The translations under genes were made by a program, and so were the position numbers. Below are positions 31,072-55,965 of a stretch of DNA of 64,000 nucleotides, in pieces (position 1 is the first letter of the stretch; each line of letters starts with the position of its first letter). The notes below the pieces were generated by a model. That model worked only from the letters and a program-made list of their open reading frames with translations, was not told where the DNA came from and ran no database searches. The DNA is from Antitrichia curtipendula. Taxonomy: Eukaryota; Streptophyta; Bryopsida; Hypnales; Leucodontaceae. The stretch spans positions 22,320,001 to 22,384,000 of the forward strand of contig OX579639.1 in assembly GCA_951230915.1 (NCBI GenBank). Reading direction: 5' to 3'.

Positions 31072-31274
31072 CAGGGTTGTCTTGTCGGACGGGTTTCCGG
31101 GTTTCGGTGATGTATTAGACGTGTCGCGTCGCGTGTCGTGTATGACATGTGTCGAATATAGGCGACAAATGCGTCGCAAAAAAATTTAGGGTTTGGAAGT
31201 TTTTTACCCCATGGTAAATGGATTTGTCCTACGTGTCTGGTTGTCCGCAATGACGTGGAAAGACAGAACTACGT

Positions 31275-31548
31275 CAGCTTGGGCGACTGCGGGTTAGGGC
31301 GAGTGCGGATCGGGGTAGGGCGACCGTGGGTCCAAGAACCAGGGCGACTACGACTTCTATAAGTGGGGCGACTTCGGGTCTGCATGGGCAACTTCGGGTC
31401 CAATGTTTATGGGCGACCGCGGGTGGAGGATGGATTGGGCGACTTCGGGTTTCCAGTGTCTGGGCGACTGCGGCTGCGTGTGTGGGACGACTGCAGGGCC
31501 AAAGGCGATAGCGGTTGAGGGGGATTCAGGCGGCGACCGCGGGTGGCC
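31275..31548 (+). repeat. GCGACC-type array, inner left subterminal
   Basis: About 14 degenerate units of GGGCGACTGCGGGT / GGGCGACCGCGGGT, pointing inward from the left end. The mirror array at the right end (55545-55760) also points inward. The unit contains the inverted arms GACC...GGTC. Confidence 0.85.
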
Positions 31549-32040
31549 TCTGCTGTAATTGAACATGACATCTATTAAAATCTTCTTAAAACTACATGCT
31601 TAAAAAGCATTACATTGGCCGCTTATTCATAACGGCTTATACAATTTGCAATTTTGAATAATATACCTCATGAAATGTAGAATTCAATTCCTCTCATTTG
31701 AACGAATGCACAAAATCCAATACAAGTCCACAATAATTATTATAATTATATTAATAACTCATATATATATGGGTTAGGTCCGGGGTATATAAGTGAAGTT
31801 GTAATTGCATTGCACTTCCTACTACTTTGTTATGGTCACCATTCTAATGCTTGTGAAAGTCTACACACTCCAAAAAAATTCAAACCTTCCTATATGTTTC
31901 TCAGCCTCACATACTTTAATATGAGGATGTACAAAAAAGTCACACATAAACTATTAATCTATTATAATCTTCATCTACAAATTTCTGATACAAAAAAACG
32001 TATGTTGAATCCTTACAATAGTACTATACTATCTCCACAT
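31549..32040. other. AT-rich spacer after hAT-B
   Basis: It contains a plus-strand TATATAAG at 31786-31793, opposite to hAT-B. This could drive an antisense transcript, but no supported gene follows. Confidence 0.35.
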
Positions 32041-35000
32041 CTATTCACTAGGATCAAAGTTGTCATCATTTGACACTTCATCGGCGTTGGGGTCTGTATC
32101 TTCATGCGACTCGTCTCTATTCTCGTTGTCGGTCGAGCTCTCGTTCTCGTCTTCTTCTCTTGGCACTGGTATGTTTCGTACCTCTCGTTCTACCTCTGAA
32201 TTCAGATTCCGCACTTCAGTATCTACACCGGCAACGCCCTCTGTTTGCACCAGTCGTTTCGTGCGCCTCAACACGTCCGTGGTTCCATCAGTGTTGGGTG
32301 TACGGTATCGCCCTCCTCCACTTGATTGACCGACATTTTGATTGGAACATTCCGCCCCCATGCTGAACCGTTGGACAACTTGATTTGGACGTTTAGGATT
32401 TCTGTGGACCACCTCGTGAACCCTCCTAATACGCTTCCTTCCTCCACTGTTGTGTCTACGCGTGCCCAATGATGATGCCCCTGGGGCTAACGTTGATGAA
32501 GGTTGAGTGGGTTGTGGAGCTGAGGCATGGACTTCCTCATCAATGGTCCGTGGTGGACCTCGATGCACCGGCGGCCTTGGCAGATGGGTTGGAATAGACC
32601 TTGTGACCGTAGCCACGCTCTGACTTGCTCCTCGATTTAAGGGTGCATTACGATTCAAATTTAGAATAGCTTGTAGAGGCACATCTGAATCGTACTCCAC
32701 CGTTTCTGTTATTCGGGTGGTACGCGCATTCACTACTACAGGAATTGGGCACCCCTCACGTACAACCTCATCAATGTGTACTGCCTCTTCTTCTCTTTCA
32801 CTTTCCACAATAACTCGTGCAGCGCTCCGGAGATTTATTGGCATGCTTGAAGACGGATGTGCTAGTACTGGAGATCTTGCAAGCTCTTCTGGTGCAGGCA
32901 CTGGATTTTGTACGCCTTCGTTGTTGTCATCAAAAGTTCTTTCCCTCGGTAGCGGTGAATATGCGGTTGGAGCTTCATCCCATGCAAAGACGCGATTCCG
33001 TTCTGGTGTACGTAGGGGCTCCTCTTCACCAGAATTGTTCTCATCATTACCATCCGTAAAAGTGTGGCCGTAACGTCGTCTTGGCGGGAGGTCAACAGCA
33101 GCAGGCATTATTCCAACCCAAGGATTTTCATGCAAGCGCTCTTCTTCTTCCATACCATTATCGGCAGCCCAACCAACTCTAGAAACCACGTCATCTTCGT
33201 CACCCGAAGATAATGCCTTCTCGTTCTCTTCCTCGATATCTCCATCCATTAGGTACTTATCGTAAAAAAGGACAGGATTGTGTCCACGTTTCTCACGTTC
33301 GAGCTTGCTGTTGGCGTAAATATACACCGATGCCTCCGCCTTGGATGTGGCCAGGCGATTTCGCACTTTACTGTGTACAAACGAATACATGCTCCAATTC
33401 CTTTCGCATGAAGATGCTGAGCATGTCAAAGATAGAATTCTCTTTGCAATTTTCGGGAGAGCATTACCATCCACATGGTTCCACCACTGATGGGGCAGTA
33501 GTGTACCTTGAGTGATATCAGGAGCCTCCATCAAAGGGTCAAATGGACCTGTCTTTTCTTTGAATTCCACAAGCTCACTCATTGCCTCCATGGGTGACAC
33601 TCCCAATGGCTCGCTGAGTTTTCGTATGACTCGATTCAAGGCAGATTTGGCCTCCCCATTGTTTTGAATGGTTGCTATATCAAGCAAATATGGGTTCAAT
33701 AGTGCACCTGCATAGTACAAATCTGTGAGCATCAATTTCCAACAAGCGTCAAACTACTTCTCGTACTTGTCTGCAATCGCGGGGTCTAGAAAAAAAGGCT
33801 CATTCCTCAAAGAGTACATGTGCTCTTTCAAGCTCTGCATCACCATCAAAGCTTTGGGCATTGCCGGGATCTTCCCATCAAACACTCGAAGAGCAACGAG
33901 CACAGGCTGTACCATGTGCAGAAAATTCTCACATTTCACCCATAACGCTTCTGAAAGAATGTTTTGTCTTGCACGCACGGCTCGTCCTTGAACTATGTAT
34001 CCATTCTTCCGCTGGAACAAACTCATCTCAAAAGGCGCATACGTCTCATCCAAAATTACGTTGTGCAACGCCTGCTTGCAATCCACAAGACGATCTACCA
34101 TGAGGAAGTTGCAAGCAAACCGCGTTAAGGCAGGGAGTCTCAACACCTTGTTCGGTGAATATTTCCGAAACAGAGCCAAAGTGAGCTGATATTTTTTGAT
34201 GAACGTGCAAATTTTCCTACAGTCCTCCACCAATTCAGTCACCTTCTTTTTCTTTCCCCAGTCTTCCAAAAGTAAATCCAAAATGTGTGCTGCACACCCT
34301 TGTTTATACATGTGAGGTTACATTTCTTGCAACCTTGTCATGGCCCCTGTCATTACTGCGGCATTGTCCGTACATAGTTGAACAATGCTTGCTGGTCCAA
34401 CCTGGTCTATGTATTGTGCCATAATATCCGTGGTGTAGGCAATGTCCTTCCTCACCCCTGTACTATCTACCGAGCCCAAAAAAACATCCCCAGTAGGACA
34501 TACGAGCATCATATTCAACAAAGGACGAGTATTGGTATCAGACCATCCATCTGAACAAATAGTCGTTCCATACTGGTCAATAGAGTTCCTCGTCCGCTGG
34601 GAGACCATGTTCTCTACAGCTGCCTTTTTCACATCTATCATTTTCGTGTGCACTGCATTGTATGATGGCAGTTGATACACAAATCCAGCTATAGCGGTTT
34701 CTTTCACTACATTTATAAACGCAGGATGTCGCACGACGTTAAAGGCTATGTTGGCTTCGTAAAAAAAGGAAGCCCACATTTTATCTAACTTCTGTCGAAG
34801 GGCCAATTGTAATGCTTCATCCATACTTCTTTGACGGGAAATGGAAGGCACATTCCTCCTTCTCTCCACTATCGCTGGAGTAGAATCTACTGAGTCTGGA
34901 TTAGGAGTCGATGGTTCATTCGTACGACTAGGGTCCCCGGACCCTTCAAAATCCACCTCCACTTCAGGCCCAACAAGGGGCCCAACAACACCATCATCTG

Positions 35001-35316
35001 CATTGAGTGCAATCGGCGCATCGTACATTTCTTCGTAGCTCATGAATTTTGGAACAACCCCCATACAGTTCCTAAATTTTTCCAATACGTTTGGAGGGAT
35101 ACGTTGACAGAGATCATGTCTACGTGTGGCGCCAAATCCAAAGTGAGTCAATGCCCTCTTCCGTACAAATACTGTGCTCCACCCACAGAATCTGCATTTC
35201 TTTGGATACAAAGAGGCATCACCTTCAGTGCACGTTATGAGCCAAGGGTCCCACTCCTTTGTGGCCCTACGTGTATTGTTAGCAGGCGTTGTCCTCCCAC
35301 CACCTCGGCTAGCCAT
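32041..35316 (-). pseudogene. hAT-B transposase: one 1,092-codon frame with two in-frame stops
   Basis: The transposase of the inner element. ATG at 35316; all parts are in one frame, broken only by TAA at 34318-34320 and TAG at 33754-33756. Order: a BED-like zinc finger (KKCRFCGWSTVFVRKRALTHFGF); the RNase H-like DUF659 core with CSDGW (residue 254) and CTDNAAVM (residue about 314); the block PHMYKQGCAAHILDLLLEDW; the C-terminal dimerisation block CSASSCERNWSMYSFVH carrying the likely catalytic Glu; then a roughly 330-residue charged tail ending NDDNFDPSE. hAT-A reads through at both stop positions, so these are most simply nonsense mutations. It could also be a recently silenced copy whose intact relatives sit elsewhere. 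Confidence 0.9.
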
Positions 35317-35543
35317 CTTGCAGATCCGTAATGGGTCTCACAGAAAAATTACTTTATCGAAAAAACCGGACCAATCAAAAGAAGTAATGACAAAGCCACC
35401 CGCCAAGAGTGGTCCTATGAACCTCTCAAAGCTAGGTTGTTGCCCTCCGAAGAACCTAAACGTCCGCAGGAAGCCTCTTTAGAGGATTCAAGACAAGAGC
35501 TTTATCACCGGAGCAAGATGAGAGGCAATGGCTGCCCTTCAGG

Positions 35544-35550: not shown

Positions 35551-35564
35551 GTCCAAGAGGGGTT

Positions 35565-35735
35565 GTGGGTAAGGGCGACCTCGGGTACAGAGGCGACCTT
35601 GGGTACAGGCTGAGGGGGCGACCGTGGGTCCAGTAGGGCGACCGCGAGTCCCATGAAGGGCGACTTCGGGTGCCCGCCAGGCGACTGCACGTCCTTTTCT
35701 GGGGCGACCGCGACTCCAGTAGAATGCGACCATGG
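35565..35735 (-). repeat. GCGACC-type array upstream of hAT-B
   Basis: About eight units (plus-strand GGGCGACCGCGAGTCC type). Read in the direction of the gene, units end in GGTCGCCC, the same polarity as at the other inner genes. Confidence 0.8.
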
Positions 35736-35765
35736 TCCATGAATAAGCATGTGTGCAATTTTTTT

Positions 35766-37434: not shown

Positions 37435-38988
37435 TCATGCAATATCCTTCTTGTCCTTCTCTTTTCTTTTCTTTTTCTCGGATTCCAGCTCGACCATCAC
37501 CTCGTTCTCTACCCTCTTCAGATATGCGATGTTACGTTGCCCGAAGCTCTTAAAGTAACCTTGCCTCCAAGCTTTTCTCCACGATTTGGATAAATCAATG
37601 TGTTGGTTCAACTGATGCACGCTTCGTTGCAAATTCTCTTCCAACGAGAGACAAGTAGCTAACTTCTTCTTCAAGTCGGCTACTTCTGCTTGCGGTGTCC
37701 CATATAGCTTATCTACATCTTGGGCATCGAATTCGGAGACACGATCAAGAGAGGCCCGATCCCCGATTTCGGTCAGGTGAATTATCCTTGACCGTCCTTC
37801 CTCCACACTTCTCTTTGCAGTAATGTACCGATCTTCTTCCATCCTGCAATCTTCTATAATTTTGGAAAGCCAAGCCTTGGCTTCCTCACTGCCGCCAACG
37901 CTAGGCCCTCCGTCTGGACCACCGGAAAATTCCCGGTAAAATGCCTCCAGGTCTGCTATCTCTCTAGCTTGCACGGCCAAACGAGTTTGCCCACTTTCAA
38001 TTTTTGCTTGGAGGGTGGACACATATTCACCATCAAAAGTTTCCACAGTCTTCTTTTTGTAATTTTGACATGCTTCCTCTGTCCTTGCCAAATCTTCAAG
38101 AAGTTGATGAAGTTTCTCTTTGTAAAACTGTTTTTTGGCTTTCGTGGTATCTCGACGATAGGAACCTTCAACGTGTTCTTCCATTGCCGGTACTTCTTCC
38201 ACCCAAGGCAATGCCAACAAAGGCGGCACCACCTCCTCCTCCTCTATTTTGATCTCTCCATCCAGTCTATCAAGTGCTTCTATTTGGATGCATGCGAACA
38301 CATATTGCAATACTTCATCGTTTTCGGGATGATGAACCTGAAGTGGGGTAACATCCAATGGGATTACTTCCATTGCATCCATAGGAGCGCCCGAGGTAAG
38401 TTCTTCATCCGAGCTTTCTTCGCTAGCTGAACTCGCATGAGTTGACCACACGTATTCTTCATCCGCCACCCCTGTTTGGATCAACTTCTTCATTCCTAGC
38501 CCGTCCCATGGATTAGCGGAGGGACCCGCCCTCGGAATGTCTTTGGCTCTTGGAATGGTGATAAGCTTCGATGCCTTGACGGTAGTCCAATCTACCGTTC
38601 GCGCCAAGACTAGCTCTGCATACACCACTTGACAAATGAACAACGGGACCTCGCTCCTGACCACTGTTCGTGTGTTGTACAAATGTCGATGCACTTTGAT
38701 ACAACGTTGCACAAATGCGACATCCTTGCAGTAATGTAGATTTGCAGCATTCATCTTTAGATGCAACTTGTGTCGATGAAGAGGGAATAGCTTGTCAATA
38801 TGGCACCACTCCACAAACTTCTTGCAAATCACCATCGTCCAATTTCCGTTGATTCGATTCCAACCTTGAAATGCCACAGCCCCTGGATTAAGAAGGATGC
38901 GACGGATTCTATGTTGGCTATCTCCTTTCTTCTTAATCTTTTTCGTGTTAGCGTCCATCGTGGATGATTTCAACCTTGGGAACTCCAT
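37435..38988 (-). CDS. CC-A: novel N-domain plus coiled-coil cargo protein, intact
   Basis: An open frame of 517 residues from the ATG at 38988 (MEFPRLK); a second ATG at 38958 (MDANTK) is equally possible. The basic start leads into the N-domain: FQGWNR, WTMVICKKFVEWCHIDKLFP, HRHKLHLK, PLFICQVVYAELVLARTVDW. An acidic middle (SSASEESSDEE) and a long coiled coil to the C-terminus follow, ending in a Lys/Glu-rich tail. There is no RING finger. The N-domain is shared with CC-B, RING-A and RING-B, and I do not recognise it as a known family. Conserved Trp, Cys and His residues suggest a folded domain, perhaps for nucleic acid or protein binding (inference). It is intronless and lies next to its own array-TATA promoter, so it is a good candidate for an expressed cargo gene. 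Confidence 0.8.
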   Translation of the reverse strand: MEFPRLKSSTMDANTKKIKKKGDSQHRIRRILLNPGAVAFQGWNRINGNWTMVICKKFVEWCHIDKLFPLHRHKLHLKMNAANLHYCKDVAFVQRCIKVHRHLYNTRTVVRSEVPLFICQVVYAELVLARTVDWTTVKASKLITIPRAKDIPRAGPSANPWDGLGMKKLIQTGVADEEYVWSTHASSASEESSDEELTSGAPMDAMEVIPLDVTPLQVHHPENDEVLQYVFACIQIEALDRLDGEIKIEEEEVVPPLLALPWVEEVPAMEEHVEGSYRRDTTKAKKQFYKEKLHQLLEDLARTEEACQNYKKKTVETFDGEYVSTLQAKIESGQTRLAVQAREIADLEAFYREFSGGPDGGPSVGGSEEAKAWLSKIIEDCRMEEDRYITAKRSVEEGRSRIIHLTEIGDRASLDRVSEFDAQDVDKLYGTPQAEVADLKKKLATCLSLEENLQRSVHQLNQHIDLSKSWRKAWRQGYFKSFGQRNIAYLKRVENEVMVELESEKKKRKEKDKKDIA

Positions 38989-39051
38989 CAAAAAAAGGAT
39001 AGTCCGGTGACGCAAATTTGGTAGCAATTACAAGCCCCAAAATCCCAGAAC

Positions 39052-39166
39052 ACGAGCACGCATTCAGCCGCTCTGAGACGGATGAAAGACAATGCGCAGC
39101 GCTGGAATCAAAAGTGACGAGAATGGGAGGGGGCGACCTCTTATGTACCCGAAGTCGCCCTGGGCG
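39052..39166 (-). promoter_or_regulatory. Conserved promoter cassette of CC-A
   Basis: On the minus strand: GGGCGAC, 16 nt containing TACATAAG (39140-39147), then GTCGCCC, followed by a leader with GCGCATTGTCTTTCATCC and GGCTGAATGCGTGCTCGTG. The same layout and leader occur before kinase B and CC-B. Confidence 0.8.
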
Positions 39167-39560
39167 AGTACGGATCCGGGCGCGTACGCAAGACAGGGCG
39201 ACCGCGGGTCCAGGGCGACCGCGGGTTCAGGGCGACCGTGGGTTCAGGTTGACCGCGGATTCAGGAGGGAAGAAATTCAAGTTTTGAATTTCATGAACTT
39301 CAAGGCCTGGGCGACCGCGGGTGAGACGACTGCGGGTCCGGGAGGGAGGGAAAATTCAAGTTTCAAATTCACAAAATCCAAGTTAGGGGCGACCGCAGGT
39401 AGGGCGACCTCGGGTCCAGGAAGGAGGGAAATTCAAGTTTCAAATTCCCAGAATCCAAGGCAGGGGCGACCGCGGGTGGGGCAACCTCTTGTCCAGGAAG
39501 GAGGGAAATTCAAGTTTGAAATTCATGGAATCTAAGGCATGGTGACCACGGGTAGAGAGA
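39167..39560 (-). repeat. GCGACC-type array upstream of CC-A
   Basis: Units GGGCGACCGCGGGTCCA on the plus strand, some grouped into a larger repeat of about 65-70 bp with AAATTCAAGTTTCAAATTC. Read toward the gene, units end in GGTCGCCC. Confidence 0.85.
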
Positions 39561-41186
39561 TCAAAATCTTTCACTTCCTAAATCTAATTTTGGAAGCTCA
39601 TGGTACACTTTGAAATGAATTTTGAGGAAAACATGTCAACTACCACAATTAAAAATTTAGTAAGGTTCTACAAGACCACTAAGATTTTTCATCACCAAAA
39701 TGTGGAAGATAGGCCATGTGGGGTCTAATGGATGGAGGTTTAGTAAATCCATTCCTCATTTTATTACTTTCTCCTCCACCATTCATTTTAGTCATGTACC
39801 ATTTACTTCATTTCATTCAAAATTACATATAAAGGGAAAGGCCGTTGAATTGGAAAAAATTCACAATGAAAAATAAAATATGGATGTCACTTCTATATAT
39901 TTAGGTGACTTCTTCATAAAGAAGCAAAAGAAGTGGGATTACATAACTCTAGGCATGGTATACAAAATTAATAAACTTGGTATTAGGATCTAGGGTCTAG
40001 GGTCTAGGGTTTGAGAAGACCTTTTACATTGCACCAAATTATAATTCACTATGGACATTGTATTACTTCGCTATTCACTTGTACATGCCTTAGGCCTTTT
40101 CAGATCTTCTTTGAATTTGCTCTAAATTTATTCTAAACCAATGTTTGAAAACATTTTTATCAAATTTAGTTAACTCATGGCCATACGAATCCCAAATTGC
40201 ACATATAAGAGATCACGTAAAAAAAGGAAATACAACAATATCACTTATGGGCTGAAGGATTATAAAGTTTGATGAAGAGGTTGTCACTTTTCACCTACAT
40301 GAAATTGATTTGAAGCCTTCTAAACTTGGTATCACATTTCAAAACTACAATCTTAATCATCCCAAATATATGAGTTTAAAGGGCATAACATGCATAACCC
40401 CAATCAATTAGTGTCTTCTTAAAATAATTTCTCTTCATTTATTTCCAAATACGTTCTAATGTGGTATTTTCTTCAAATATTTTTGTCTTTAAGGCTCACT
40501 TTCAAGGGTTTCTCTTTTAGTTCAAAAAAGAAATGGGAAACCATAGCTTTAAAAAATAAAATAAAAAAGAAGCATTTACAAGAGCCCTAACCATAGGAAG
40601 ATAAAAATTTGTTATAGAGCCCCTGTCACAAAACATGAATATGAAGATCAAAATCTTTCACTTCCTAAATCTGATTTTGGATGCTCATGGTACACTTTGA
40701 AATGAATTTTGAGAAAAACATGTCAACTACCACAATTAAAAATTTAGTAAGGTTCTACAAGACCACTAAGATTTTTCATCACCAAAATGTGGAAGATAGG
40801 CCATGTGGGGTCTAATGGATGAAGGTTTAATAAATCCATTCCCCATTTTATTACTTTCTCCTCCACCATTCATTTTAGTCATGTACCATTTACTTCAATT
40901 TATTGAAAATTACATATAAAGGGAAAGGCCGTTGAATTAGAAAAAATTCACAATGAAAAATAAAACATGGATGTCACTTCTATATATTTAGGTGACTTCT
41001 TCATAAAGAAGCAAAAGAAGTGGGATTACATAACTCTAGGCATGGCATACAAAATTAATAAACTTGGTATTAGGGTCTAGGGTCTAGGGTCTAGGGTTTG
41101 AGAAGACCTTTTACATTGCACCAAATTATAATTCACTATTGACATTGTATTACTTTGCTATTCACTTGTACATGCCTTAGGCCTTT
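39558..41186. repeat. Partial tandem duplication, period 1,087 bp
   Basis: 39558-40099 and 40645-41186 are copies of about 541 bp at a constant offset of 1,087 bp, differing at roughly 15 sites by eye and without net indels. Each includes a short GGGTCTAGGGTCTAGGGTTT run. The spacer 40100-40644 includes dispersed repeat copy 3 (from about 40215). I see no LTR hallmarks, so a duplication is preferred over a miniature retroelement. Confidence 0.8.
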
Positions 41187-41480: not shown

Positions 41481-42060
41481 GTCTCAAAATTGGTCGAATG
41501 CTGTGTTTAATGAGCAATTTTGGGTCTAGGCGACCGCAGGTAGGCGACCTCTTGTCTTGGGCGACCTCGGGTGGGTGTGGGTTTACTTCATGTCTCAAAA
41601 TTGGTCGAATATTGTGTTGAATGAGCGATTTCGGGTCTAGGCGACCGCAGGTAGAGGGCGACCTCTTGTCCTGGGCGACCTCGGGTGCGTATGGGTTTAC
41701 TTCATGTCTCAAAATTGGTCGAATGTTGTGTTCAAGGAGTGATTTCGGATCTAGGCGACCGTAGGTAGAGGGCGACCTCTTGTCCTGGGCGACCTCGGGT
41801 GCGTGTGGGTTTACTTCATGTCTCAAAATTGGTCGAATGTTGTGTTCAAGGAGTGATTTCGGGTCTAGGCGACCGCAGGTAGAGGGCGACCTCTTGTCCT
41901 GGGCGACCTCGGGTGCGTGTGGGTTTACTTCATGTCTCAAAATTGGTCGAATGTTGTGTTGAATGAGTGATTTCGAGTCTAGGCGACCGCAGGTAGAGGG
42001 CAACCTCTTGTCTTGGGCGACCTCTTAGGGCGACCTCTTGCCTTGGGTGACCTCTTGCCT
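41481..42060. repeat. Higher-order GCGACC array, 114-bp period
   Basis: The marker GTCTCAAAATTGG occurs at 41481, 41592, 41706, 41820 and 41934, so the period settles at 114 bp. Each unit joins two or three GCGACC motifs to AT-rich sequence. 114 is 3 x 38, so a minus-strand frame (41395-42003) stays open as 38-residue repeats. No promoter or start context supports a gene. Confidence 0.85.
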
Positions 42061-43724
42061 TGGAAGAGCTCGGGTGGGTGTGGGAGCCATTGAATGAATG
42101 GAGGAGACTTTGGGTCTTGGGTGACCTCGGGTGGGGATAGACCCTTTCTTCCTTCCCAAATGGGGGATCATTGGAGAACTCGGATCATTGCAGAACTTGA
42201 GTAGGGAGAGTCCTTTTCTGCCCAAATGAAGGAATGTAGGAGACATCGGGTTTGGGGCGCCCGCGGGATTGGGGCAATCTCGTCTTGGTTGACCGCGGAT
42301 AGAGAACGGAAGTTCAATTTGGAAGAGATGATTAGGAACAAGTAAAGAGACTTTCTGAATATGTGACACATGGAAGAAATGCACAATCAAATACAATAAT
42401 CCTATGAACAACCTCGTTGAGCCATACAAAGAATTTTATAGCAAGGTGGATCATAATTGGTATTTTTTAGTAAGCGTAAATAAAATTGCATTTTTCCTAA
42501 TTGGTGTGTAACATACTAAATTTGTGTTTTCAACAATAAAATTGCCTTTTCTATAAATTTTTTATTTTATACTCATGGATTTATATTTATAATTCAATAA
42601 AGTCATTGTTGTTGAAATATTTTAATTTGGTTGTGGACATATGTAGGAATCATTTGATTTATATCTTCCCCTCAATGAGTACTTCTTGCCGTTCTTGAAA
42701 AGTTTTACAATTCTTCATGCAAAGATTTCTATATTGAGGGGGTAGGAGCGATGTCAAAGTTTGTAAAATAGGTATTTCTTTATCATGCTAAGATTGTTAT
42801 ACTTGGCCCTCATAAGGTAAATAATTTTATAGATTTCAACAAGACAATACAATTATGGATTTATGTTGGCAAAATCTTGTTAATCAACATAGAAATATGT
42901 ATTTCACAAAGTTTAGTCATATGGCACCTCACATTGCACCCTTTGTATGTCATATAATTGTTACTGTAGAGAGTCATTTTTTAATATGGAAGATGTGCGT
43001 ATGCATATTCCGTACATATGTTTGAAATCGAATTAAAATATTGCAACGACAATATTTTTTGATACAATTTTATGTAAGTCCATGGGATTTGAATTTAATC
43101 CGGAGGATCGAAGGCCATTTTTTCCTCAAGAAGCATGAAGAATGCCATTTTTTAGCCATGAATTGTAAACTTTAGAAATTTCTGGCATTTTTGGCTGTAG
43201 ACTATTGTAATAGACTAGTATAATAATGTGTAGAAGAAATTTCAAAACCCTTTACCACGTAGATTGGAAGATATTTGAATTTGAAGTGAAGAAATCATTT
43301 GTTTGGGGATCTTCATTAACTACATTTGTTTGAATCTTCTTAATTTAGTATTTTGCCACCACCAATTTTTGTTTCTAAATTTTTTATAATGAAGTCGTGG
43401 ATTGAGAATTTAGGAACTAAAATTCAACTTAAAAACATTTGGTTTTCACTTTTCAAAAGTAATTGTTACATACAAGTAGGGTCAAGATGGAAGGCAAAAC
43501 TAAAATTTGAAGAGTTCTAAGATGGAAATGGAAAACAATAATCGCAAGATTGTTCTAGCAAGATTCATGAACTATGTCTATATATTTTTTAGTATAAATT
43601 GTGATCTTTGTATTCAAACATGAATTTAATTAGTTTCTTTTTCAAGAATGGTGGAAGTTCACCAAAATAGGAAGATTGTCCATAACTTCTTAAGTACTAA
43701 TTCAAAACAACGAGACGGGGAGAA
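42061..43724. other. Spacer between CC-A and kinase B
   Basis: Scattered GCGACC-like units continue to about 42300, then AT-rich DNA. Parts near 43100-43600 resemble the TTAA MITE family. No gene is recognised. Confidence 0.45.
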
Positions 43725-43862
43725 AACCCGCGGTCGCCCAAGACCCGCGGTCGGCCAGGTTCCGCGGTCGCCTGAACCCACGGTCTCCCAAGTTCCACGG
43801 TCGGCGAGGACCCGCGATCGCCTTGGTTCCGCGGTCGCCCTTTCCTGGAACCCGCAGTCGCC
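43725..43862 (+). repeat. GCGACC-type array upstream of kinase B
   Basis: About eight units of CCCGCGGTCGCCC polarity reading toward the gene, ending at the TATA cassette. Confidence 0.8.
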
Positions 43863-43865
43863 CTA

Positions 43866-43972
43866 GGGCGACTGCGAGTACTTAAGAAGTCGCCCCAACC
43901 CGCATTCTCCACTCCCGGCCTTGCGCACTGCCTTTCATTCGCCTCGAAGTGGCTGAATGCGTGCTCGTGGGC
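43866..43972 (+). promoter_or_regulatory. Conserved promoter cassette of kinase B
   Basis: GGGCGAC, 16 nt with the degenerate TATA-like TACTTAAG (43879-43886), then GTCGCCC. The leader with TTGCGCACTGCCTTTCATTC and GTGGCTGAATGCGTGCTCGTG matches CC-A and CC-B. The ATG follows about 178 bp after the TATA-like box. Confidence 0.8.
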
Positions 43973-44063: not shown

Positions 44064-45719
44064 ATGGCTAATCCACAGAAAGGCAGCAGCTCAACACGGA
44101 AATCCATTTTTGATTTAGATGATGCGGCATTGTTTGCTCTGCAGATACCTGTTAGTGAGGCAACAGGGAGTGAAGGGCAAACGAAGAGGAAGAAGAAAAT
44201 CATAACGGCATATGACAAGGATTCAACCTATCCTCCTTCCAATTATGCAAACTATGCATTTGAGGGTTGCCTGTCCTGGTATGCGGGAAAAACTACACAA
44301 TTCTTGGAGGCCAATTACCTAAGGGACCCATCCCACGGCATCTTCAAATTGATTGCTGATTTGGAGGCAAGAATTTTAAGCAAGTGCAGAGCATCGCAAG
44401 ATTTTGGAGACGTGGAGGAGACGTACTTTTCCCAATACGAATTGTGGATTGAGAACACTGTAAAGACATGCATATTCAACACCAAGGAAATAATGCTACA
44501 GATGCGACCGGAAGTGCCAGGATTTGCAGGAGATGATGAAGCCAAGGAATTCCGTGAAAAGATGGCGTGGTGGCATGAAGTTGTGAAGAAACTTTCGAAG
44601 AATCATGTGAGGGGTATGAAGTGGAAAACGAACGCATTGAAGGCGGGTTTTGCACGAGAGGCTGGCTCCACTGTCACATGGATCTCTCCTCAGGCAAAAG
44701 TAATTGCCCTCACTGGATTTGACCGTCAAGGTGGGTATGGAATGGTGCGCAAGGTGCGCATTGAAGGGATGCAAACAATCCCGCCATACGTTGCTTTTAT
44801 TGGGAAAGTGCCAAAATCAAAGAACATGCGTGAAGCGAGGGAGCAACGATCCGTAGAGGCCTTGGCATGCCCCGTAAACCATCTTGGCATTATTAAGTTT
44901 TTTGGTATTCACGCCAAAACTATGGAAGCGTACACACTGTGGTGGAATGGCGGTACATGGCTTGAAATGCGAAGATTGGATGAGAAGGTGTCAGAGAGCG
45001 TTGATTGGCATGAAATAAAGCGGATGTGGAAACTTACAGAGGACAATCAAAAACATCTTAGCTTGTTCCGAAGGCACAAGGCAAAGTTGGCGTGGGCTTT
45101 AGTGTATGTGACACATCTCATGCACGAGTCTTTGGTGCTACACAATGACCTAAACCCTCAAAACATACTGCTGCATTTTCCCAATTATTCGGATGAAGTA
45201 ATCAACATCGGGATTTGTGATTTTGGAATTTCAAGTCGTTTTGATGAAGGAGCTCCTTCACATTATGGATATGATTCTGAGGAGAAGAAGCAGCAATCCT
45301 TACGAAGCCGTTGGTGGGTGGCTCCGGAGTTGTTTTATACGTTTGGTCCACGAAATTCCAGTACGAGCCTAGAGATTATGCAATCACAATATAAATATAC
45401 AGTGCAATCAGACTCGTATTCTATTGGAAAGTTGACCGAATGGATGAATCTTCTTAATATGGTCGAATACGATACGGACTTATTCAAGAGGCGCGAGGGA
45501 TCCATGTACTTTGCCATCAAGTTGGGTGAACTCACTAACCCTGATCCAAAGAAGAGACCGACATGTACTGAGGTTACAAAGTTGCTCATGGATAAACCGT
45601 GGTACATGAAGCCCCCGGAAGTAGTTTTCCGTGACTCAATTTGTAGTAGGACTATAGGAACTGATGTTATCAAGTCGGCTTCAAATTGTTGGCCACATTG
45701 TGCGCCTTTCATTTTGTAA
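44064..45719 (+). CDS. Kinase B: HND-type protein kinase cargo, intact
   Basis: An uninterrupted frame of 551 residues, predicted to transfer phosphate from ATP to protein. Residues 1-60 are polar, about 120-200 form a conserved pre-kinase region (NTVKTCIFN, KMAWWHEVVKKLS) shared with kinase A, and about 215-520 hold the kinase domain. Visible motifs: RQGGYG loop (221-226), Lys248, Glu265 region (VEAL), HND at 360-362 in place of HRD, Asn367, DFG at 386-388, APE at 420-422, then SYSIGKL. All core catalytic residues are present, so activity is plausible. The substrate is unknown. HND with following NPQNILLHFPN is shared only with kinase A here. It is intronless, with its own array-TATA promoter, upstream of and parallel to CC-B. 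Confidence 0.88.
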   Translation: MANPQKGSSSTRKSIFDLDDAALFALQIPVSEATGSEGQTKRKKKIITAYDKDSTYPPSNYANYAFEGCLSWYAGKTTQFLEANYLRDPSHGIFKLIADLEARILSKCRASQDFGDVEETYFSQYELWIENTVKTCIFNTKEIMLQMRPEVPGFAGDDEAKEFREKMAWWHEVVKKLSKNHVRGMKWKTNALKAGFAREAGSTVTWISPQAKVIALTGFDRQGGYGMVRKVRIEGMQTIPPYVAFIGKVPKSKNMREAREQRSVEALACPVNHLGIIKFFGIHAKTMEAYTLWWNGGTWLEMRRLDEKVSESVDWHEIKRMWKLTEDNQKHLSLFRRHKAKLAWALVYVTHLMHESLVLHNDLNPQNILLHFPNYSDEVINIGICDFGISSRFDEGAPSHYGYDSEEKKQQSLRSRWWVAPELFYTFGPRNSSTSLEIMQSQYKYTVQSDSYSIGKLTEWMNLLNMVEYDTDLFKRREGSMYFAIKLGELTNPDPKKRPTCTEVTKLLMDKPWYMKPPEVVFRDSICSRTIGTDVIKSASNCWPHCAPFIL

Positions 45720-46599: not shown

Positions 46600-46862
46600 A
46601 AACAAGGGGCCACTGCGGTCGCCCTGGATACGAGGTCGCCTGGACACGCGGTTGCCTGGACACGCGGTTGCCTGGACACGCGGTTGCCTGGACACGCGGT
46701 CGCCTGGACACGCAGTCGCCTGGATACGCGGTCGCCCTAGACACAAGGTCACCTGGACACGCGGTCGCCCTGGACACTCGGTCGCCCTAGACACGCGGTT
46801 GCTTGGTTCCCGCAGTCGCCCTCCCCTGCCTTCGGACCCACAGTCGCCCTCCGTACGCGCCC
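46600..46862 (+). repeat. GCGACC-type array upstream of CC-B
   Basis: About 17 units of CACGCGGTCGCCTGGA, oriented toward the gene. Several units carry GTTGCC or CAGTCGCC, which are C-to-T or G-to-A changes in CpG or CpNpG contexts. Confidence 0.85.
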
Positions 46863-46863
46863 C

Positions 46864-46970
46864 AGGCGACATCGGGTATATAAGAGGTCGCCCATCACCC
46901 GCGTTCTCCACTCCTGGCTTTGCGCATTGTCTCTCATCCGCCTTGAAGTGGCTGAGTGCTTGCTCATGAG
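46864..46970 (+). promoter_or_regulatory. Conserved promoter cassette of CC-B
   Basis: GGCGAC, 16 nt with a good TATATAAG (46877-46884), then GTCGCC. A leader with TTTGCGCATTGTCTCTCATCC and AAGTGGCTGAGTGC follows. The ATG lies about 161 bp further on. Confidence 0.85.
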
Positions 46971-47044
46971 CTAGGGGTCGGAGTTTTGGAGGGCGTATTT
47001 TGATCATTTTGGCATCAGGGGAAGGAATATTCATGTGTATTGCG

Positions 47045-48490
47045 ATGGAAGAGGAGGCCCAACCTTCGCCACCTACTGTACCGAGATCAGAAGATGGGAA
47101 AGAGTCCAAGGCGCTTCGAGGCAAGGATCGAAAAAAGAAAGGAAAAATCCACAAGAAGCGCAAGGCCATCTTGATCCATCCGAAGATTAAGGCTTTCAAG
47201 GGTTGGAGAGATGAACCCACGCCTTGGACTTATAAGACGGTTCAGAAATATGTGGATTGGTGCCACATCGACAAGTTATTTCCGTTGTATCGTCACAAGT
47301 TCCACTTGAAGTCGAACAAGGTAAATCTTGCATATTGCAAGAACACAGCCTTCCAAGAAAGATGCTGCGAGGTGTGGAAGGAACTCTATAAAGGCCTACA
47401 AACGTATCGAAACGACAATTTTTCTTTCTTTCTTGCAAGAATGGTGTATGTTGAAGTTGTATTGAAGAAGGAGGTGGATTGGTCAAGCATTAAGGATCTT
47501 CCGATCGGGACCCATCTAGGAGAATCAAGTATTCCTTGGGCAGATGTAGCGCCGGATGTGAAGGAATCGGTGACATCGGCAAAGCCTGGGAAGTTTTTCA
47601 TTTCTGATGAAAATGTAGTGTGGTCGGCGACTTCTAGCGAAGATGAACACACCCATGAATACGATGGATATTCTTTCCACAGTGACGATGACGACCTTCT
47701 CATGGAAGTCATGAACAAGGCTTTGGGTTTGGAAATGGATAGGAAGGAAAAAATGAAGGTTGACGAGCCCATCACAGAATCCCACGTTGATGTGCAAGGC
47801 ATGGAAGATGCAGGGCCTATGAAAGTGGAACATGTTGTTCTAGAGCGGAACCGCAGTGTTGATGGAAGCGATTCGGAAGACGACGTAGAGTTGTTGAGTG
47901 TCAAGGCGGCAAGTGTAAGATCTGCTTTGCGTAAGAAGATGAACGAACTCCGTCAATTAAATGAGAATGAACTCTCAGTACAAGTGGGACCCGTTGTCGT
48001 AGATGATTTGAAGAAGCAGTTGGAGGGAGTAACGAAAAGCATCCAAGAAAACGACAAGTACTTGAAGGATTTGAAAAAACATCGCGATTTTTATTTCAGG
48101 TAGCGTGAAAGTGGAAGGGTGCACTACATGGACGAGTATGTGGTATGGCAATCAAAGCGCGATCTCCTGGAACGTGAACGTTGGATTTACAAGAATGAAA
48201 GGCGAGACCTCGATGTAGCAATAAAGAAAAAAAAAAAAAAATATTGCATCGCCGCTGTTGAACATAAGCCAAGTACCAGTGCTGAAGAAGTGGCAAGGCT
48301 TCGTTCATTGGTGAAGCTACACTCCATGAATGCAATGGCGGTACAAGAATCGCTACGCCATTTGGAATCTGAATTTCGTTTTCACAAAGAATGGCGGAAG
48401 TTTCAGATGAGTACCATAGGAAAAACAGAGGCAGAGGTGGACGCAATGGGGCCGGGTCCCATTGAAAGCGACTTTGTTTTTAGCACTTAG
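47045..48490 (+). pseudogene. CC-B: N-domain plus coiled coil, one in-frame TAG
   Basis: A frame of 482 codons from ATG 47045 (MEEEAQ), broken only by TAG at 48101-48103. The N-domain reads FKGWRDEPTPWTYKT, YVDWCHIDKLFP, RHKFHLK, ARMVYVEVVLKKEVDW, close to CC-A. An acidic middle (ATSSEDEHTHE) and a coiled coil on both sides of the stop follow, with a poly-Lys run from an A-tract near 48230. An upstream ATG at 47033 is also in frame. The product could be a 352-residue truncated protein that keeps the N-domain, or the TAG could be a recent mutation. There is no RING. Confidence 0.8.
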
Positions 48491-50116: not shown

Positions 50117-51045
50117 TTAACCCCTAAAGTCCCAAAGCTATTTTCTGGCCCTAAACCACTGAAAATTGTCATTTCTGCTGCGTTCATCCAAGAAACCAAA
50201 AAAAATTAAAAAAAAAATTAAACCGTAGGATCTTGTACTTCATTTGTCTAAGATCATATGATAAAAATTTCATCAAATTTGACCGTACGGATTGGAAGAC
50301 ATCAGCATTTTGTAGTTGGAAAGTAGTGTTTTTGAATGCTTTTTTTCCAATTTCAGCTGACTTTGGTCGCCATTTGGAACAAAAATTTACTCTATGGACT
50401 CCAAGTTTAAAATTTTTGTATTGAAGAATTGTGTTGAGAACTTATGAAAAAAATTTCAAAAAATAAACACTCAATTTTCATTCTTTAAAAAATTGTTAAG
50501 TAGATATAGGTCCAAGATTGAATAAAAAACTAAATCATTAATAGCTCCAAGGTTGTATTGAAACACAATAATTCCAACGGTGAGATTGTTCTAGCAAGAA
50601 AGAACAACCTTATCTAATGTTTTTTTTTTCAAAATTCTAAAAATTGCATTCAAAAATGAATCCTAAAAGTTATTTTTCCAAGAAAATGCTTAGATTGCCC
50701 AAAAAAACAGGATTGTCCATAACTAATTCAATACTTGTCCAAATAGAATGAATCAAAGCTTCACACGTATATAGAAATTTAATATTTTAGGAAAAAAAAA
50801 ATTAAATTTTTTTTTGACTTCCTGTGATTTTTTTGGTGCTGCCCGACGAGTTTGGTTTGGGGCTTTTTGTGGTATAATTTTTGCTCCTGGGCACCAATTG
50901 AAATAAAAATTATATTCCCACAAAGATAATCAATTTTTCTTTCTTCAAAAAAAGCTTCAAAAAATCAAAACAAAAATTCAGCCTGTACGTTCCTGCCCGA
51001 AATCCCATTTGTCCCCCAAGGGGACAATGGGACTTTAGGGAGTAA
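50117..51045. mobile_element. TTAA-family (piggyBac-like) MITE, about 0.93 kb
   Basis: The left end is TTAA-CCCCTAAAGTCCCAAAG. The right end read inward is TTAC-TCCCTAAAGTCCCATTG, so the core CCCTAAAGTCCCA is an inverted repeat of 13 bp. The length matches the copy at 868-1800. The right TTAA carries one change. Confidence 0.65.
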
Positions 51046-51785
51046 CTTAGAATTTGGGCAATACTGATTTTGAATCTACTATTTTTTTATGTTGAAGAAT
51101 TGAATTTAAAGTTTAGTAAATTAAAAAAAAAAAAAAACTTCATTTTCACTTGTTAAGAAGCTGTTAAGAAGAAGTAAGTTCAAGATTGAAGGAAGAACTA
51201 ATGTGTTAAAAGCTCTAAGATGGAATTGAAATATAATAATTTCATTGGTGAGATTGTTCTAGCAAGAGATCTGTGGTTCAATTTTTTTATATGTATTGTG
51301 AACCCGTTTTCCTACTTATTCATTGAATTGTAGAAGTTACAAGACGTACGTTTTTTTTCTATAAATGTTGGACAACATTATTTCACCATCAATACAAGGT
51401 AGAGAAGTGTACAATTTCAATTTTAGGCACATTGAACTGGCAATTGGCTAGAATGATGAATCACAAATTTTTGAACAATGTACTTGAATAAGTGAAGCAA
51501 AAAATAGTTTGGGTTGCATCGGTTTAGAATTAAATATTGATGATGATTTCCAAATTTTGTATGGATGGCCTCATTTTTAAACAAGAAAGGCAAGGTAGTA
51601 TATATTGAAAACCAAAGCAATATAAAATTGCAGTACATAAGTATAAATTATAAAACGAAGCCACAGAAGTGGAATCGAAGAAGAAAAACAAAACTACTAA
51701 ACACTGCTCGCCATTGCTAGTGTAGATATAGTATGACCATATGCTAGGGGCCTTACAACACGTATACTATTACGCAAAAAGATGT
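51046..51785. other. AT-rich DNA downstream of RING-B
   Basis: No gene is recognised. It probably holds the RING-B 3' UTR. Confidence 0.4.
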
Positions 51786-54700
51786 TCACGTAAACAAAGA
51801 ACAAAAATGTTTAGATGATAACATCTGTGTCGTTTGAAAACCACTTCCTTCCCCACATTCGTAGGTGGATGACTCCCCAACACCAAGCTTACGCTTGGCA
51901 CGAGTTCGTGAAGCTGGTCCGTCCGCCTTCAAAATGGATTCCAGGACGTTGGAATTCTTTAGAGCTTCGAGGGTCTTTGTGGTCTTTGGAGAGTGTTCTT
52001 CCAACAGATAGTTGAGGGCTTGAGTTTGGTAATAAGGCCCGTATACAGAGTCTAAGTAAGACATGCTGTCCAATTCATCCATGGAGGCCGTTGCATCTTG
52101 ATTGGCCACCCTCAGTCCTTGAAAATTCCAACAGTGTCGTTGTGGATGAGGACCCCAATTGAAGGTTCCGGAGGTCTTATTGAAATATCCACCAAGGCAC
52201 TGGTAGAAGAATGCCCTCCTCCCTTCGCCTTGTGGCCCTTTTCCCATCAACTTGACTCCAATTCTGACAATTTCTTCCGGATCTGTTTCCCAATTCAATT
52301 GGGAACTAGCAACTCCCTTTTCCAAATCATGGTTTCCTTGTCTCCAGCTCCAGAGCAAGTCTCGTCCCCACATTCTGGTGTCTTCTGTGGTATCACTGCT
52401 GTGTTCCCAAGAAGGAGGCATGTAAGTCGTCAAGTTGAACATGATGTACAAACGATCATGGAATGGTGCTGAACACAAAACGCAACGACGTTTAATCAAA
52501 CAGTGCGTGATGAGACACTGAGGATGGTACACATGTGTACATGATCCAAGTGCCCAGCCACCTTCGGGACCAAATTGCTCTAGACATATGGGACATTTGG
52601 TGTGGTCCAAAACAAAGGGTGCAGGATGTGGCCACAGCAGTGGGTTTTTTTTAGGCGATAAAAAGACTAATCGCACCAAAAAATAATCTCATGCACCAAG
52701 GCCTTGGAAAAATTTGGAGGAATTTTTTTTTTAAAAGCCAGATCCAAATTTTGGATTACACCCTTGCATCCACTACCTCAACCATGACTCTTGGAGTTTG
52801 CCTTTTTGTCGCCACCTTTGTTGATGTTGATTCAACAACTTTTCATTTTCCATCGCCTAAAATACACCAAAGTTGACAATATGAGTAGAATATGTAGCCA
52901 TATGCATGGACAAAAGGTTTATACATTACAAGATTTTCCATATGAAAAGTGCTTTATGCAGTGGGTTAATAATGCAGATAACTATCAATATGGGATTCGG
53001 CGTAGTGTTGTGATAAGTGGTCTCTTCACATCATTCTATATTTTATGTTTTATAGGTTTGATGTTTATATCTTTTTAGATATGTTTTTTGTAGTTGCAAG
53101 TTTTCTTGTTGTAGATTTTGCTTGGCATTTCTTAGCAATTGCAATCTTTGAGGTTGCATTTTTGTTGTAGACAACATTTCAAACCTTAGACTTGTAGCAA
53201 TATCATTTTGATATTGCCGTGTAATCAAAAAATGGGATTTTTCAACTTATGAGTTGCAATCTTCCTAATTCATTTTGCACCACTCTTCAAAACTTTGCCG
53301 CCCTATTTTGCACCAGTGTAAGAGCTGAAATTGATAGAGATGTTTCTTGGATTTTGTTTTGGTGCCATATAACTCACACTAATTCTTAATTTGGAGCCAA
53401 ATTTTGCACCAAAAAAAACCTTGAGGGCACCTAACCTCAACCACTTACTTCTCACATGGAGCCTAAATTCAGATTCCCTTAAATTAAAAAAAAAAATCAC
53501 TGGGCCACAATAGCTTTTTTTCCTGCACTTCGATATGGCTGGACATTTGTTTTTTGTGGTCCCAACCATTTTCTGTCCAATCAGTGTCGGTCTTTTCCGC
53601 CAAGTCCATGTTAGTGGAGAACATGTCCTCCATCAATGCCCATGACGTGAGACCGCACTCTCGTTTAGGCTCTTGTGCAACGAAGTTTCTTGAAATTTTC
53701 TCCAATTCCTTTGCAACTTGTTGTGCTCTGTCCACTGAGAGGATACACGCGACCTTCCAATGATAGTATGTGGCCCCCAACTGTGACAACCGATCTCGAA
53801 GCATTCTATTTTCTTTTTCGAGGTCCAATCTCGACTGCAACTGTACGGAATGAGAAATCACAGGAAACAAGAGTGAATCTTGGATCTCCTGGAGATCATT
53901 TGTGGTAGTATCTTCCAGAATTGCCGTAAGAAGCGCATTTGGAGTCATTGAAGAATGCTTGGCACGCTTGGCAACAGGAGAATGGTGAAGCAAATCATCG
54001 GTGAGGTCGCCTACAACCTTGTCCAAATGATGTGAATCCGGCTCAAGAAAGGCATCATCCATGTCCGACAAAGTAAAAGTGTCTTGTACTTTGTCTCTGA
54101 GGCGTTGCAGTTCTATAGATTGTTGAGAGAGGAGACGATTTTTGTGTGCACACTGAGATTGCAACTTCTTGACATTGCTTTGCAGCAAAGCAATGTTAAT
54201 GTCCTTGGTCTTTAGGAGGTCGAAAGCCTTAGCTAGAGTCATAGCGTTGTCAGTTCGAGTCACTCTAGATTGAGGGATGGAAGCACGAACAACTGCTCCC
54301 ATGGGCATGTCATCGCTTGGACCAAATTCGAAGACGTTGTTGGCATCTTGTACTGGCAACGGTGGATGCGGACCTGCTGCTGAAGTTGATCATGGCCCAA
54401 TTTGCGTAGTTGAACGTCGCACCTTCGGGAGGTTTTTCACTCTTTGACCTTGTGACGCTGAACGATTATTGTCATTTTCAATCTGAACTTTGGCGAGGCC
54501 CACAGTGTCTTCTTTGTCTTGTCCTATCTTTGGCTTCCGCGTACCGTCAGAATCAGGATCTTCGTTGGAATCATCACTGTGAACTTCAGTAGCTATTCTG
54601 TTTCTAGGAGCACTTCGAATAGGCCCAAGTCCCCCGTCTGGAAAAGCCATAACACCTCTTGGTATTGATCCGCTTGTTGGACGTGCCACGTATGTAGTTT

Positions 54701-55157
54701 CCTTGACTGTGCTCCAATCGACCTCCTTTTGTAGGGCCACCTCAGCATATGCTCCTCTAGCGATGAAGAGAGGTACTTCATTCCTGTCTACGTTGGGAGT
54801 TTTATAAATAGCCTGCCACAATTCTATACACCTTTGAGTGAAGTCTGCATTTTCACAATGCTTCAAATTTGCCTTGTTAGTGTGACGGTTGTGATAATGG
54901 CGCCACGCCGGAAAAATCTTGTTGATGTGACACCATTCGATGTAGTCTTCGTAGGTCTGCATTGTCCATGGTTGTGGCTCCTCGTTCCACCCTTTAAAAG
55001 CAATGTGATTTTCACTATTCAATACATGTAACTGCTTCTTATGAATGGTGCCCTTGCGCTTCCGAGTCCTGTCTTTGGCAGCCTTGCTGAGGCAACCAGG
55101 AGTGCGCGTTGTCTGAGGGAGAGGAAGTGACCCCTCACTGTTGCCTCCGCTAGCCAT
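51786..55157 (-). pseudogene. RING-B: N-domain, coiled coil, RING-H2; one stop and an insert
   Basis: The inner counterpart of RING-A. From ATG 55157 (MASGGNSEG) the N-domain reads FKGWNEEPQPWTM, YIEWCHINKIFP, FIARGAYAEVALQKEVDW. After an acidic stretch comes an in-frame TGA at 54390-54392, then a coiled coil (54359-53600), then DTDWTENGWD. At about 53495 an insert of about 0.84 kb splits the gene. It resumes near 52650 with the RING-H2 finger CPICLEQ...CTHVYHPQC...CVLC and the shared C-terminal block (GRRAFFYQC...PHPQRHCWNF). Without the insert it would be about 845 codons. RING proteins usually act as E3 ubiquitin ligases; the target is unknown. As it stands it cannot make the full protein in one frame. 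Confidence 0.83.
52650..53495. other. Insert splitting RING-B, about 0.84 kb
   Basis: It is AT-rich. Its two edges both carry a TTGTGGCC/CTGTGGCC-like coding remnant (LLWP), suggesting a short duplication on insertion. Near both edges are 'gcaccaaaa' motifs like those at the window start. It holds a plus-strand ORF (52881-53078) of about 65 residues (MSRICSHMHGQKVYTLQDF...) of unknown nature, perhaps a captured fragment. Confidence 0.55.
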
Positions 55158-55318
55158 GGAATCTCTATACGTCGAGAACTTGCGATAACACAAGCTGGGA
55201 TGAATGAAAAGTGAGAAGTAAACATTCAATACAGGGATCACGCATGCAGCCAATAAAGGATACAAGACAGAGAGCCAAAATGGAGAATGAAGGTGAAGAA
55301 GACCGTACGGGCGCATGG

Positions 55319-55325
55319 ATATATA
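55319..55325 (-). promoter_or_regulatory. TATA box of RING-B
   Basis: TATATAT on the minus strand, 162 bp before the ATG. The flanks differ from the CC-A/kinase B/CC-B cassette. Confidence 0.6.
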
Positions 55326-55364
55326 GGTGGGCGAGCACGGGTACGCTTCTTTGAGCATGTGTTC

Positions 55365-55780
55365 TGGGCAACTTCGGGTCCAACTTGGGAGACCGCGGGT
55401 CCAGGAGGGGGTGACTTCGGGTCCAACATGGGCGACCGCGGGTCCAGGAGGGGCGACTTCAGGTCGAATAGGGCGACTTCGGGTCCAAGAGGAGGCGACC
55501 GCGGGTCCGAGCGTTCGCCTCAGCCGCGATCTCCCTTACCCGCATTCTCCCATACTTGTGTTCTCCTACCCAAGGTCGCCTCCATGCATGTTCTCCTTCC
55601 CGCGGTCGCCTACACCTGCGTTCTCCTATCCGCGGTCGCCCTTACACGAAGTCGCCCTACTTGAAGTCGCCCTACATGAGGTCGCCCTAACACGAAGTCG
55701 CCCTACCTAAGGTCGCCCTAACACGAAGTCGCCCCTATCCGCGGTCGCTGTGTACCCGAAGTCGCCCGTCCACGTCACAC
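55365..55780. repeat. GCGACC-type array, inner right subterminal and RING-B upstream
   Basis: The proximal half (to about 55525) has GGGCGACCGCGGGTCC on the plus strand. The distal half (about 55545-55760) has the inverse CGCGGTCGCCC. Polarity therefore switches near 55530. The proximal half faces RING-B as in the other genes, and the distal half points inward from the element end. Confidence 0.85.
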
Positions 55781-55965
55781 CCGCATGCGCCCCTAAAATG
55801 TGCCACGCGGATGCTACATGGCATCCACATAGCTTAGGTAAAAGGGGGGTAATTTTTTGAAAAGTCAAAGGTAAATTTGACTTTATGTGACGTCGCGGAG
55901 GGTCTCCTGGATGTCGCGTGACGTCTGTCTGTCGCGATGTCGCCATGTCGCGCAGAACAACCCTG

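Follow-up and report, generated by a model that had tools for sequence, protein, structure and literature searches.

A stretch of 64,000 nucleotides from Antitrichia curtipendula (Bryopsida; assembly GCA_951230915.1, contig OX579639.1, positions 22,320,001 to 22,384,000 of the forward strand; here called the window) carries, between positions 31072 and 55965, an element with the ends and the transposase of a hAT transposon together with genes for a kinase and for coiled-coil and RING proteins. The 400-Mb genome has 53 chlorophyll a/b-binding matches; one such protein, among chains matched once, has its best scores against 8htu_U and 7xqp_a, photosystem structures of a moss (Physcomitrium), which makes a moss-like land plant probable. 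Are these additional genes passengers, or do they belong to the element? An earlier note on this DNA had proposed a very large hAT-type transposon with host-like cargo. The first part of that proposal stands and the second does not: with a probability of about 0.78, the feature belongs to a lineage of hAT transposons of giant size (about 15-25 kb) which possess their own core of transposase, divergent kinase and N-domain/coiled-coil/RING genes, and in which a short box repeated at the element ends would also serve the promoters of these genes. The ends of the element are as follows.

31064-31071: left copy of the target duplication, CACCCGCC
31072-31081, + strand: left terminal inverted repeat, CAGGGTTGTC
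31072-55965: inner giant hAT element, 24,894 bp, defined by its ends, the duplication and recurring boundaries
55956-55965, - strand: right terminal inverted repeat, CAGGGTTGTT (forward-strand letters AACAACCCTG)
55966-55973: right copy of the target duplication, CACCCGCC

Both the 8-bp target duplication and the short terminal inverted repeats are those of a hAT element. The duplication directly outside both ends is perfect, as had been claimed; CAGGGTTGTC is indeed found at 31072, but its supposedly perfect inverse at 55965 matches at 9 of 10 bases only. Further copies of CACCCGCC occur at 31016, 56002 and 56114 within a CGTCC array, and random positions in the two array flanks give an 8/8 match in 173 of 30418 cases (0.57%). 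Because the flanks consist of this array, the duplication alone is weaker than it appears, and the boundary needed other evidence. Exact CAGGGTTGTC was found 1137 and 1165 times genome-wide, as compared with 151 and 154 times for a reversed control. The left end was searched for with a query that joined 12 bases of flank to 489 bases of the end (368 candidates, 40 scored including the window), and the right end similarly gave 357 candidates, of which 40 were scored, again including the window. At the left, 34 of the 39 other scored matches start at most one base from 31072, and the remaining five run 2-8 bases into the flank without reaching the end of it. At the right, 35 of 39 end at most one base from 55965, the others lying between 3 bases short of this position and 5 beyond it. 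In 26 of the 39 scored matches, a distance of 10.6-11.2 kb separates the kinase from the right end. Many other loci thus share these ends and break off where the element does, and the recurrence of both boundaries, with the excess of CAGGGTTGTC over the control, shows that the ends are not due to chance.

Pairing of ends on the same strand within 70 kb produced 20 pairs, 8 of them 22.5-26.4 kb and 12 of them 28-57 kb apart, the latter being lengths that nested insertions would make. The 40-bp ends of all 20 pairs were read (39 pieces, one being common to two pairs). Duplications were perfect in eight pairs, had one mismatch in seven and were absent from four; one further pair has a perfect duplication if its right terminal inverted repeat lost a base, which brings the total to 16 of 20, nine of them perfect. 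Since two pairs of copies have common flanks, the 16 duplications represent 14 insertion sites. Among the four pairs without a duplication, one was mispaired, its right end belonging to another copy, and two more, on C3, have flanks that match crosswise (8/8 and 7/8). The copies that the earlier note had proposed to look for, sharing the ends but differing in their 8-bp duplications, therefore exist.

Some of these loci deserve a separate description. At G000:C3:20510815-20632741, two copies in opposite orientation have the crosswise flanks TTTGCAAC (8/8) and GCTACAGA/GCTGCAGA (7/8), as after a rearrangement between both copies. The common flanks are those of C9:25355065 and C10:23969329, and of C10:23726897 and C4:46899018; all four copies lie at most 1.7 Mb from contig ends and could reflect segmental or subtelomeric duplication, or duplication in the assembly. 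A 2.1-kb end pair, L028 (G000:C1:327219-329330), resembles the left end of the window family, has 7 GGCGAC boxes and is flanked by CACCTTTC/CACCTTCT, which is no exact duplication; it is probably a short non-autonomous derivative.

The genes between the ends, and an insertion in one of them, are these.

32041-35316, - strand: transposase gene (DUF659, hAT dimerisation region), two in-frame stops
37435-39027, - strand: CC1, N-domain (WCHIDKLFP) and coiled coil, open frame, without RING
44064-45719, + strand: kinase gene with catalytic residues and a tail not in the frame of the family
47000-48490, + strand: CC2, paralogue of CC1, one in-frame stop
51786-52637, - strand: 3' part of CC3-RING (RING finger)
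52638-53502: 865-bp insertion splitting CC3-RING, with CAGTG ends and the near-duplication GGCCACAG/GGCCACAA (7/8)
53503-55358, - strand: 5' part of CC3-RING (N-domain and coiled coil), one in-frame stop

The transposase had been described as a BED-DUF659-hAT protein. Its frame, which has stops at residues 333 and 521, matched Pfam above cut-off for DUF659 (PF04937, 78.6 bits) and for the hAT dimerisation domain hATC (PF05699, 27.6 bits); the open transposase of E7.48M, an element of another family, gave 121 and 33.4 bits, respectively. The BED zinc finger found no Pfam match in the window, and in a further element, E14.6M, it scored 14.4 bits against a cut-off of 20.6. The motifs SDGWSD, TDNAAV and CERNWS follow each other in this order within the transposase frame, and we take their acidic residues to be catalytic. 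Instead of the two coiled-coil proteins reported before, three paralogues are present (37435-39027, 47000-48490 and, across the cut, 53484-55358), CC2 and CC3 corresponding to the N-terminal part of CC1 with 31% and 33% identity to it in the alignment. The supposedly separate RING protein is the 3' part of CC3, cut off by the 865-bp insertion. A separate RING gene was considered and rejected, as a copy on C3 has coiled coil and RING in one frame, the later stops of which lie within the RING part. Both copies of the window family that were read contain the N-domain/coiled-coil part twice more, without RING. Protein searches returned 5 relatives for CC1 and 3, with 49-65% identity, for the coiled-coil-RING protein; a profile of the N-domain and coiled coil gave just two weak matches to solved structures, both in the coiled-coil region. 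With stops in the transposase, CC2 and CC3, a split RING gene and a frameshifted kinase tail, the window copy is decayed, and judging from its reading frames it could move only with the help of intact relatives.

The 865-bp insertion at 52638-53502, with its CAGTG ends and 8-bp near-duplication, is probably a small non-autonomous hAT of another family. The element also contains a 300-bp direct repeat (97% identity) at 39558-39857 and 40645-40944, 1087 bp apart, and a 114-bp tandem array at 41481-42112, which holds a box cluster without an adjoining core gene.

The multi-gene content might suggest a virus-derived or viral element using a hAT transposase. However, no viral structural or replication family was found among the ten open reading frames scanned with Pfam, and six peptide patterns of the kinase, which find close relatives only, had no match in viral contigs, so that we regard such an origin as extremely unlikely.

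The kinase gene had been called intact; the domain is open, but the tail is out of frame with the family and 24 residues longer. A protein search gave 32 relatives, and K248, H360-N-D362, N367, D386-x-G388 and APE, whose roles we presume to be catalytic, are invariant in the window and in 15 of the 32. In a genome search, 79 of 1524 candidates were scored. All 20 checked matches that cover residues 1-528 with a single stop end in FRDSIL-stop at the same place; because this single stop is the terminal one, the matched frame of these 20 copies is otherwise free of stops. A further three of those scored match residues 1-527 and have no stop. The protein is far from solved kinases, the best match of a 16-sequence profile having an E value of 1e-6. 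The ratio of nonsynonymous to synonymous substitution rates (dN/dS) was 0.10 (470 codons, dS 1.85) and 0.14 (372 codons, dS 1.37) in two deep comparisons, which are nearly one comparison, since they have one sequence in common and their remaining two sequences are closely related. The remaining unsaturated kinase values were 0.20-0.49, and coiled-coil values within families were 0.25-0.75; most pairs between families had saturated dS and were uninformative. These values suggest that recent copies decay while the kinase shows an older constraint, seen in one deep comparison. On C5, 9 of 12 kinase loci are 84-90% identical to that of the window, and elsewhere nearly all listed loci are 93-97% identical; C5 may be a non-recombining (sex) chromosome with older copies.

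The 100 CAGGGTTGTC places listed first, which are all on C1, include eight adjacent convergent pairs with a spacing of 10-30 kb, and seven of these have perfect 8-bp duplications; six of the seven were fetched whole and one at its ends only. The six are divergent giant hATs of 14.7-20.2 kb with perfect duplications, all of which encode transposase, coiled-coil and RING segments, and five of which encode the kinase. The eighth pair, 29.8 kb apart, has no duplication and contains only kinase and RING pieces. No duplication was found in the three pairs 40-60 kb apart, nor in any of four adjacent pairs of 2-8 kb that were read (2.1, 4.1, 5.3 and 6.7 kb), although the 6.7-kb pair yields a perfect duplication when an outer start, 7.1 kb away, is used. 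One pair of the size of a miniature inverted-repeat transposable element was seen (235 bp, CTATTCAA on both sides). The six giant hATs are 26-57% identical to the window proteins per matched segment and therefore represent deeply diverged families. Gene order and orientation vary between the families. Open frames are found for the transposase (953 residues) and the kinase (469 residues) of E7.48M, and for the N-domain/coiled-coil/RING protein of E1.2M (797 residues) and E14.6M (980 residues).

The view taken in the earlier note, that an ordinary hAT had captured host signalling genes as passengers in the manner of Pack-hATs, has in its favour that kinase and RING domains are host-like in kind and that gene capture by hATs is documented, as a rare event (PMC3260210). 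It does not account well for one gene set common to families that have diverged to 26-57% identity per matched segment, for full-length frames in relatives, or for a kinase which is remote from solved kinases and under purifying selection in one deep comparison. A one-off capture of cargo is rejected, since the kinase, coiled-coil and RING genes are common to divergent families, and capture in general we consider improbable.

The second feature of the giant hAT lineage is a box sequence which in the window element is GGCGAC. The boxes are nearly confined to the element, 72 of 81 lying in seven clusters which are all inside it.

31161-31537: left subterminal array, 9 GGCGAC boxes
35574-35708: GGCGAC cluster upstream of the transposase gene, 7 boxes
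39132-39470: cluster upstream of CC1, 9 boxes
41529-42034: cluster in the 114-bp tandem repeats, no adjoining core gene, 15 boxes
43733-43894: cluster upstream of the kinase gene, 6 boxes
46618-46892: cluster upstream of CC2, 11 boxes
55431-55944: right subterminal array, also the upstream region of CC3-RING, 15 boxes

For each element, the box was taken as the commonest word at the ends that is not A-rich, except in E15.5M, where the second commonest was used, and in an outer element in the window, for which the word was taken from its relative E1.2M. In other families the word is CCGTCC or CGGACG, frequent at the ends and partly in the same pattern upstream of genes. Over eight elements, 15 of 17 internal clusters lie at most 700 bp 5' of a core gene, with 1.98 expected and none of 20000 random placements reaching this number. 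As four of the eight elements are one family, the count was repeated on a single element from each family: 10 of the 12 internal clusters are then upstream (1.49 expected, 0 of 100000 placements). Distances between genes and clusters are approximate, because a coiled-coil gene was taken to start where its matched segment starts. An upstream cluster was found for all five genes of the window element, 3/3 in E1.2M, 3/3 in E14.6M, 1/3 in E8.1M and 0/3 in E7.48M. A cluster at element positions 6905-7180 of E14.6M (L020-L022) has no recognised adjoining core gene and may mark a further or a lost gene. The kinase gene also shares a core promoter with CC2 and CC1 (82% and 75% identity, respectively, over about 95 bp).

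The presence of boxes at ends and promoters is thus observed, and could be explained either by a common function or by promoter minisatellites that lie at the ends because genes sit there, without binding of the transposase. The latter would fit the 4 of 14 end arrays that double as the upstream region of a terminal gene, and E7.48M, in which boxes occur at the ends and none upstream of genes. However, 10 of the 14 end arrays, including the left one of the window, adjoin no core gene start, and GGCGAC marks the ends and promoters of the window family, with seven clusters in the window element and none in seven other elements. Subterminal repeats also matter for a hAT transposase, Kat1, in vitro (PMC4763223). 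We regard the minisatellite explanation as doubtful, though of the alternatives it is the one to be taken most seriously.

The window element has itself been inserted into another giant hAT, the features of which are given below.

14168-56362: outer giant hAT, 17,293 bp when the inner element is left out, near-duplication AGTTTAGC/TGTTTAGC (7/8)
15063-17086, + strand: transposase pieces of the outer element
20584-22101, - strand: kinase of the outer element
22650-23069: CCGTCC box cluster upstream of the outer element's kinase
25667-26238: CCGTCC box cluster upstream of the outer element's coiled-coil/RING gene
26557-28722, + strand: N-domain/coiled-coil (26557-26934) and RING (28006-28722) pieces of the outer element

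The CGTCC array that the earlier note had seen around the inner element is present, and is the terminal array of this outer giant hAT. In its relative E1.2M on C1, whose longest blocks are about 95-97% identical to it, the insertion point is uninterrupted: a single CACCCGCC stands there, and 30 bases spanning the junction are identical. Alignment of E1.2M to the joined flanks scored 1138 with one CACCCGCC, 1130 with two and 1121 with none. E15.5M (704 with one, 691 with two and 706 with none) and E17.5M (259 in all three cases) do not discriminate. The empty site with a single CACCCGCC that the earlier note had hoped for was found in this way, although in a paralogous element and not in another haplotype, and it demonstrates insertion rather than excision.

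Nesting of this kind, the position of clusters next to genes and the variable gene order and orientation would also be expected if the giant elements were composites of smaller nested or fused hATs, with the internal box clusters as remnants of former ends. Yet there is no exact terminal inverted repeat inside 31072-55965, where the single match with one mismatch lies at 50708, and a spacing of 22.5-26.4 kb between ends is repeated in 8 of the 20 pairs. Moreover, the C3 copy is collinear with the window over 33862-55965 (87-97% identical by block) apart from the 865-bp insert and local repeat differences. A composite nature is largely refuted for the present units and is unlikely overall, by a hair less so than capture; it may describe the first origin of the lineage.

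Several observations weigh against the interpretation as a lineage of giant hATs with their own gene set and box system. The transposase of the window is broken, E17.5M has no kinase, and the number of families examined is four. APE is not kept in other families, the kinase of E7.48M having VPE and that of E14.6M no such motif. Within families, dN/dS is 0.32-1.16 for RING and 0.24-0.99 for the transposase, values that are compatible with decay after insertion. E7.48M lacks internal clusters and E8.1M has one, while two internal clusters (that of the window at 41529-42034 and one in E14.6M) adjoin no core gene. CCGTCC and CGGACG, which are overlapping sequences, both form clusters in 5 of the 7 other elements, and because of this co-occurrence the specificity of the word is clean only for the window family. 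What is observed directly nevertheless includes the element boundaries with their 8-bp duplications, a large number of copies, a gene set that recurs in divergent families, nesting and an empty site, and a giant hAT lineage remains the explanation that we prefer.

In the mechanism we propose for this lineage, the transposase or another DNA-binding protein encoded by the element would recognise the box. Boxes at the ends would assemble the transposition complex, and the same boxes upstream of genes would control transcription, so that transposase and accessory proteins would be regulated together. The kinase and the RING protein would be accessory transposition factors, which probably phosphorylate and ubiquitylate the transposase or host proteins limiting movement. 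The identity of the box-binding protein, the regulation of transcription by its binding and the service of kinase and RING to transposition are inferred.

The 8-bp duplications, short terminal inverted repeats, subterminal repeats, DUF659/hATC transposase and short convergent end pairs, like those of non-autonomous relatives, all agree with the hAT superfamily (Ac/Ds of maize, Kat1). Ac, however, is 4.6 kb long and gene capture by hATs is called rare (PMC3260210), whereas the present elements measure 15-25 kb, have kinase and RING genes that recur, and bear boxes of the end type at promoters. Tgmt* of soybean, a 20.5-kb CACTA element, is similar in size, in its subterminal repeats and in having a second function that binds them, but belongs to another superfamily with another transposase, and its abstract mentions no kinase or RING gene (PMC2613891). 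Pack-hAT and other Pack-TYPE elements likewise have, in Pack-hATs, hAT ends around non-transposase coding DNA; theirs are non-autonomous and carry captured gene fragments (PMC8903248), in contrast to the recurring full-length set and the transposase here. The full-length frames and transposase of the relatives do not fit a Pack-hAT, although no search was made for a host parent gene. Starships and ToxhAT (now ToxTA) of fungi are also large elements with accessory genes, but Starships use a tyrosine recombinase, and ToxhAT is not a hAT, as it has TA duplications and was reassigned to Tc1/Mariner (PMC12506042). The DUF3435 tyrosine recombinase of Starships was absent from the Pfam scan of the ten reading frames. 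Among the papers listed in literature searches, whose lists were cut short and often off topic, none describes a plant hAT that has both a conserved kinase and a RING protein; this is a weak negative, as the sources were mostly titles and the beginnings of abstracts, without Repbase.

Transposons of the hAT superfamily are generally pictured as carrying a single gene within a few kb, and the lineage described here is 15-25 kb long with recurring kinase and RING genes. Tentatively, and at slightly less than even odds, it may be a plant transposon lineage with a post-translational control circuit of its own, a kinase and a RING ubiquitin ligase, whose genes are wired to the end boxes in such a way that a single protein both activates the accessory genes and builds the transposition complex. 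The boxes common to ends and promoters give a testable model of this co-regulation. Such a lineage would be evidence that accessory regulatory genes can be maintained by cut-and-paste transposons of eukaryotes, and would provide a direct way of asking how phosphorylation and control by ubiquitin benefit a transposon.

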